Of a stretch of 64,000 nt of DNA, positions 48,124-48,425 are shown piece after piece. The translations under genes and the position numbers were made by a program. The notes below the pieces were generated by a model. It was not told where the DNA came from and ran no database searches. It saw only the letters and a list, made by a program, of their open reading frames with translations. The DNA is from Candidatus Lachnoclostridium pullistercoris (lineage in GTDB: Bacteria; Bacillota; Clostridia; Lachnospirales; Lachnospiraceae), in contig DWWL01000049.1 in NCBI GenBank assembly GCA_019119775.1, positions 1-64,000 of the forward strand, read 5' to 3'. How positions within the stretch are numbered: position 1 is the first letter of the stretch; each line of letters starts with the position of its first letter.

Positions 48124-48154
48124 CACATTGACGTATTAAAACGTAAAAAAATAT

Positions 48155-48302
48155 AACAGTTCAGACGGCGGGTAAATAGAGGGGAAAACTGACGTCAAGC
48201 TTGCTTGTAAGTAAGTTTTCTCCTCTATTTACACATCGGATGAACATCCGATGCTTCTTGTCCGGCCTATTGGACGGGCAAGAAGATGCCGTCTGAACTG
48301 TT
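48155..48302. repeat. 148-bp cloverleaf-forming intergenic element (candidate MITE-like element or structured RNA)
   Basis: 15-bp perfect terminal inverted repeat AACAGTTCAGACGGC/GCCGTCTGAACTGTT enclosing three further hairpins (19, 9 and about 13 bp). Confidence 0.8.
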
Positions 48303-48425
48303 GCAAAAAATACAGCAGCCCGGCGGGCACCTGGAACAGCCATAAAACGATCCGCCGGCGCGGGAAAGCATATTTTCGGCGGGTTTCCGCATAGGATAGA
48401 CCAAAACGGCAGGAAGGTGAGGACA

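Follow-up and report, generated by a model that had tools for sequence, protein, structure and literature searches.

A cloverleaf-forming intergenic element of Candidatus Lachnoclostridium pullistercoris is very probably a MITE copy with IS66-type ends

The window, the whole 64,000-nucleotide stretch of DNA analyzed here, contains an intergenic element of about 150 bp that folds into a four-stem cloverleaf, and the question raised by this locus is whether the structure belongs to an RNA, to a DNA target, or to a mobile element. An earlier note had listed all three as candidate roles. The four helices that it described (P1 to P4) are all present in the window sequence exactly where it had placed them: P1 is a perfect 15-bp stem, P2 has 19 bp with one G.U pair, and P3 and P4 were confirmed as well. 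Its bounds, 48155 to 48302, hold for the helices but not for the extent, since the true element is 2 bp longer on each side (48153 to 48304). The element is very probably a copy of a ∼152-bp MITE that has IS66-type ends and would be mobilized in trans by an IS66-type transposase. The features are as follows.

48153 to 48304, plus strand: complete MITE copy, 152 bp, from genomic copies and flanks aligned
48145 to 48152, no strand: left 8-bp target-site duplication AAAAAAAT, 6 of 8 bases identical to the right copy, with a family-wide 8-bp peak
48305 to 48312, no strand: right 8-bp target-site duplication AAAAAATA, from flank comparison and the family-wide 8-bp peak
48153 to 48169, plus strand: left terminal inverted repeat, the 5′ arm of P1, family consensus GTAACAGTTCAGACGGC, from copy comparison
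48288 to 48304, minus strand: right terminal inverted repeat, the 3′ arm of P1, from copy comparison
48172 to 48232, plus strand: P2 hairpin, whose arms covary between subfamilies and whose tip CAAGCTTGCTTGTAAG is almost invariant, from fold and alignment
48234 to 48253, plus strand: P3 hairpin CATCGGATG-AA-CATCCGATG, from fold and alignment
48254 to 48285, plus strand: P4 hairpin, from fold and alignment

The minimum free energy (MFE) of the plus strand was −89.1 kcal/mol compared to −37 kcal/mol in shuffled sequences (z = −13.1; 0 of 200). The minus strand folded almost equally well (−77.3 kcal/mol; z = −12.8), as DNA palindromes would be expected to do. A search for dispersed copies and empty sites, proposed in the earlier note, was successful on both counts. 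The element's own genome (G000) contains 13 full or nearly full copies, 88 to 100% identical and in both orientations, and with the truncated or internally deleted ones there are ∼20 scattered copies altogether. At least 14 copies, ∼80% identical, occur in the congener G005, and two further genomes (G008 and G027) have a single diverged copy each. The family is thus short (152 to 153 bp with both ends), noncoding, multicopy, and dispersed, as expected of a MITE. The strand of the nearest long open reading frames (ORFs) on either side differs among the copies, and comparison of these ORFs revealed no constant gene context. Contigs C31, C39, C60, C64, C79, and C81 are among those of G000 that start or end in or beside element copies. 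The repeat breaks the assembly, so the true copy number may be higher. The element was unmatched in the plasmids and phages searched, and a pattern search of viral contigs found no cloverleaf copy; the 33 lone end-motif matches in the viral contigs were judged to be due to chance.

The ends of the element became clear when the copies were aligned with their flanks. Intact copies begin with GTAACAGTTCAG, finish with CTGAACTGTTAC, and are flanked on both sides by an 8-bp target-site duplication. The start of the element is GTAACAGTTCAGACGGC and its end is the reverse complement, and the terminal inverted repeats of intact copies, another MITE property, are 17 bp long; the P1 stem is this pair of repeats. 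The GTAACAGTTCAG motif, searched on both strands, gave 16 matches in G000, 16 in G004, and 144 in G005, compared to zero for a reversed-letter control in the same three genomes. To assess the duplication, 20 copies from G000 and G004 were chosen by their ends and length only, ignoring any duplication. The 8-bp flanks were exact in 10 of them, and the mean match was 0.91 at 8 bp compared to 0.20 to 0.41 at 4 to 7 and 9 to 11 bp. The target-site duplication thus has a fixed length, 8 bp, as in MITEs. The target is AT-rich, and insertion duplicates 8 bp of it. The family ends are GT...AC, and the terminal dinucleotides of the window copy have decayed to AT...GC; its duplication bases match at 6 of 8 positions (AAAAAAAT versus AAAAAATA). 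Given the decayed ends and the imperfect duplication, the window copy probably inserted long ago.

The decayed end bases of the window copy, and nothing else, would suit a chance or decayed palindrome, an outcome for which the earlier note had allowed. The element is multicopy, and the dispersed copies, the z score of −13, and the duplications rule this out. A second explanation, a palindrome of the REP/BIME type that a Y1 (HUH) transposase mobilizes, would account for an element that is short, palindromic, intergenic, and multicopy. However, it is hardly conceivable in view of the consistent 8-bp target duplications and the long terminal inverted repeats; HUH Y1 transposition is not known to make target duplications.

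Insertion can be followed at individual sites. First, the closest congener (G002) has an empty orthologous site: a short spacer with no element separates a cupin gene and a membrane-protein gene that are 89% and 84% identical, respectively, to those of the window. The earlier note had placed the element probably outside the cupin transcript; these results are compatible with that remark, and the putative-promoter stretch is conserved in the congener without the element. Second, three copies in G005 (L034, L037, and L042) are nested inside a second MITE family that shares the first 12 end bases, and excising the MITE together with one 8-bp copy restores 150 to 155 of the second MITE's 155 bp. 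Of the roles put forward at the outset, it is the non-autonomous mobile element that the results bear out, through copies, terminal inverted repeats, 8-bp duplications, an orthologous site that lacks the element, nested insertions that can be reversed, and insertion sequences (IS) elsewhere that have the same ends. Mobility can be read from these sequences; the mobilizer and any use of the cloverleaf are inferences. Related MITEs that share the first 12 bases are present in congeners and in other genera. The second family of G005 (155 bp, GCCGTGCGCC type) has GTAACAGTTCAG ends and more than 100 end matches, and a third, in G004 (186 bp, GCCATG type), has GTAACAGTTCAG ends too.

The ends point to a candidate mobilizer. 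IS66 elements have GTAAGC or GTAACC ends, and the published ends GTAAGCGTCC and GTAACCGTCC agree with the MITE-type ends (PMC12888890); IS66 elements make 8-bp duplications (PMC3281130). The MITE family consensus, GTAACAG, starts with GTAA as IS66 ends do (the window copy has decayed to AT/GC here), and its 8-bp duplication length agrees with that of IS66 control elements. An IS66-type DDE transposase was found neither in the element's own genome, an 89% complete draft, nor in eight congeners. Draft assemblies often lack multicopy IS. When divergent IS66 transposases were used to scan genome contigs, three IS with the MITE's own ends were found in other genera. L305 is 1,812 bp long, with ends GTAACAGTTCAGCC, an exact 8-bp duplication AATTTTTT, and one 494-amino-acid ORF that matches Pfam DDE_Tnp_IS66 at 65.7 bits. 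L302, from Roseburia inulinivorans DSM 16841, is an 1,829-bp IS with MITE-type ends whose flanks no longer match, and L307, from Candidatus Blautia faecipullorum, has MITE-type ends, one of them diverged. All three score above the Pfam DDE_Tnp_IS66 cutoff and below the NCBIfam IS66 equivalog cutoff and therefore belong to a divergent IS66 branch. The L305-type branch was rare among the 299 genomes of the family searched, and end-motif copies number 6, 27, and 45 in the L302, L305, and L307 genomes, respectively.

These IS resemble the MITE in the first 12 terminal bases, GTAACAGTTCAG, and in the 8-bp duplication. In contrast, the MITE is only ∼152 bp long, lacks an ORF of its own, and has an interior unlike that of the IS, from which it shows no obvious derivation. 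An IS66-type DDE transposase from an autonomous element with like ends would cut the MITE and move it in trans. Because no autonomous element was found in G000 or the eight congeners, we infer such mobilization by an L305-type transposase from the shared ends and duplication length; the mobilizer may have been lost, may be unassembled, or may be of another kind. Other partners fit less well. Classic IS66 elements (ends GTAAGCGTC) were rejected as a direct partner on account of mismatched ends. The divergent IS66 clade A1, a sister clade with ends GTTACTGTTCAC, makes exact 8-bp duplications as well, so that the duplication length fits, but its end bases differ. End motifs standing alone in the G004 and G005 genomes were considered as possible sites of an autonomous copy, and those read were MITEs, remnants, or motifs beside unrelated genes. 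IS66 is absent from a review of prokaryotic MITEs (PMC10969869).

An alternative is an independent structured noncoding RNA that belongs or is closely related to Rfam family RF01699 (Clostridiales-1), with copies that multiply as RNA genes and are retained for what the RNA does. This explanation draws on a borderline match. The window copy scores 48.5 bits against the RF01699 gathering score of 48, over the full length, with the same order of helices and a GCUUGC hairpin tip. The earlier note had recognized no known RNA family; the score qualifies that statement, but membership fails on inspection. A 93% identical sister copy did not match RF01699, nor did the other copies when coarser filters were used. 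RF01699 is present in 52 of 145 relatives, often in 15 or more copies. Its ends are TGATG...GGGTCAAAAGG, and it has an additional hairpin that the Rfam model does not cover. Exact 5-bp duplications flank 6 of the 13 RF01699 loci that have recognizable TGATG-like ends, and none of the 13 has an exact duplication at 3, 4, or 6 to 10 bp. Loci L077, L079, L087, L088, L089, and L097 combine TGATG...CATCA ends, 5-bp duplications, and the extra outer hairpin.

The window element has neither these outer ends nor this duplication length and is not a member of RF01699, because the ends of RF01699 differ and its duplications are 5 bp long. The two share a closing stem and three hairpins in equal order, a GCTTGC tip on the long hairpin, and many dispersed copies in Lachnospiraceae. 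They differ in the TGATG...GGGTCAAAAGG ends, the extra terminal hairpin, and the 5-bp duplications of RF01699, and there is no clear sequence homology. The 5-bp duplications and other ends mean that RF01699 has a different mobilizer. Since it has TGATG-like ends and 5-bp duplications, RF01699 itself looks like a MITE family in its own right that was wrongly filed as a small RNA. It was classed in 2010 as "probably RNA, not cis-regulatory" (Weinberg et al. 2010, PMC2864571), and the literature searched contained no paper connecting either RF01699 or a cloverleaf repeat of Lachnospiraceae with transposition.

The interior of the element was then aligned for 12 members from four genomes. The covariation check suggested for the helices was positive: 97.4% of the cells stay paired, and 26 of the 45 pairs show two-sided change, compared to 9.8 in shuffles (0 of 500) and 2 to 8 with the partners slid. 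P2 is the main carrier of covariation. This means that P2-P3-P4 pairing is maintained between lineages by compensatory change, which a minimal MITE model leaves unexplained. Such covariation would favor the RNA explanation, as would the P2 tip (GCTTGC or GCTCGC), which permits a CUYG-type tetraloop. However, selection on one RNA strand should favor G.U changes, and among one-step changes counted across four families with fixed orientation, there were 42 G.U compared to 31 A.C wobbles (P = 0.24), so that no RNA strand is clearly preferred. RNA function is unsupported because single changes show no strand preference. Furthermore, in one copy (L013), the P2 tip has the opposite orientation to that in L002 with respect to P3 and P4, as if recombination between the P2 arms had flipped it, and the distribution of the copies is accounted for by mobility. 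Given also the unmatched sister copy, the varying gene context, and the 5-bp duplications at RF01699 loci, which make the similar Rfam family MITE-like, the independent structured RNA of the earlier note is highly improbable.

Compensatory change could instead reflect a folded single strand or cruciform that serves as the substrate of a recombinase, transposase, or replication protein, the cloverleaf being needed for mobility. The four-helix shape recurs in MITE families of different sequence (G000, G005a, G005b, and G004), those with identical first 12 bases (G005b, 155 bp; G004, 186 bp) also having a closing stem and three hairpins, and RF01699 has a similar shape with other ends. Against this, ∼30-bp elements consisting of ends only (L070, L075, L195, and L180) still have matching duplications, although they may be later deletions, and 8-bp staggered duplications are ordinary in double-stranded DDE transposition. 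We consider a required cloverleaf unlikely. The cruciform DNA target named earlier gained no positive support, although the covariation shows that the palindromes are kept. A broader possibility, which we regard as fairly unlikely, is that unrelated Lachnospiraceae MITE families (the 8-bp IS66 type and the 5-bp RF01699 type) converged on or share a GCTTGC-tipped cloverleaf interior because a folded single strand, DNA or RNA, serves the element. Its service, if this is true, could be, e.g., copy control, protection, or transposase access.

For a MITE mobilized by an IS66-type transposase, the three inner hairpins would be unnecessary for the mobility seen, as ∼30-bp two-end remnants keep their duplications. 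Interior complementarity may be kept because a folded single strand aids the element or host or because the palindromes mend by template switching, and such self-repair may by itself suffice as an alternative explanation of the maintained pairing. Copies left behind decay as they acquire point mutations, flipped hairpins, and internal deletions. The last have produced 30- to 60-bp remnants in which the two ends and the duplication survive (L058, L070, L075, L195, and L180). L059, L070, L075, L180, and L195 are 29- to 31-bp palindromes with little beyond the two ends and with largely matching 8-bp flanks; these are either deletion remnants or minimal mobile units.

Similar elements are known elsewhere. 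The Correia elements (CREE/nemis) of Neisseria are also short, palindromic, and non-autonomous, with possible effects on neighboring genes, but they mostly form a single long hairpin instead of a cloverleaf, and their ends, target duplication, and mobilizer differ from those of the window MITE. RUP, BOX, and SPRITE of Streptococcus pneumoniae are likewise MITE-like repeats found between the genes of a Gram-positive host and show nested insertions, but they have other ends and another partner IS, which for RUP is of the IS630 type with a TA duplication. The present reading accounts for the cloverleaf, striking as it is, without invoking any new class of RNA, and it provides a transposase-MITE pair that can be tested for a group dominant among gut bacteria. 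It also carries a warning: at least one Rfam small RNA family (RF01699) behaves like a mobile element, and compensatory change in palindromic mobile DNA alone is no proof of RNA function.

Two minor observations concern the element's sequence. The stretch ATGCCGTCTGAA at 48286 to 48297 is identical to the 12-mer DNA uptake sequence of Neisseria; the match is probably a coincidence, as most sister copies have ATGCCCGTCTGAA. In G005, four copies (L055, L060, L068, and L072) have 16- to 19-bp inserts (CAGCGTGCCCCCTAGGGTA and AAGTGCCCTGTGGGTA) at A^TG within P2 or P3.
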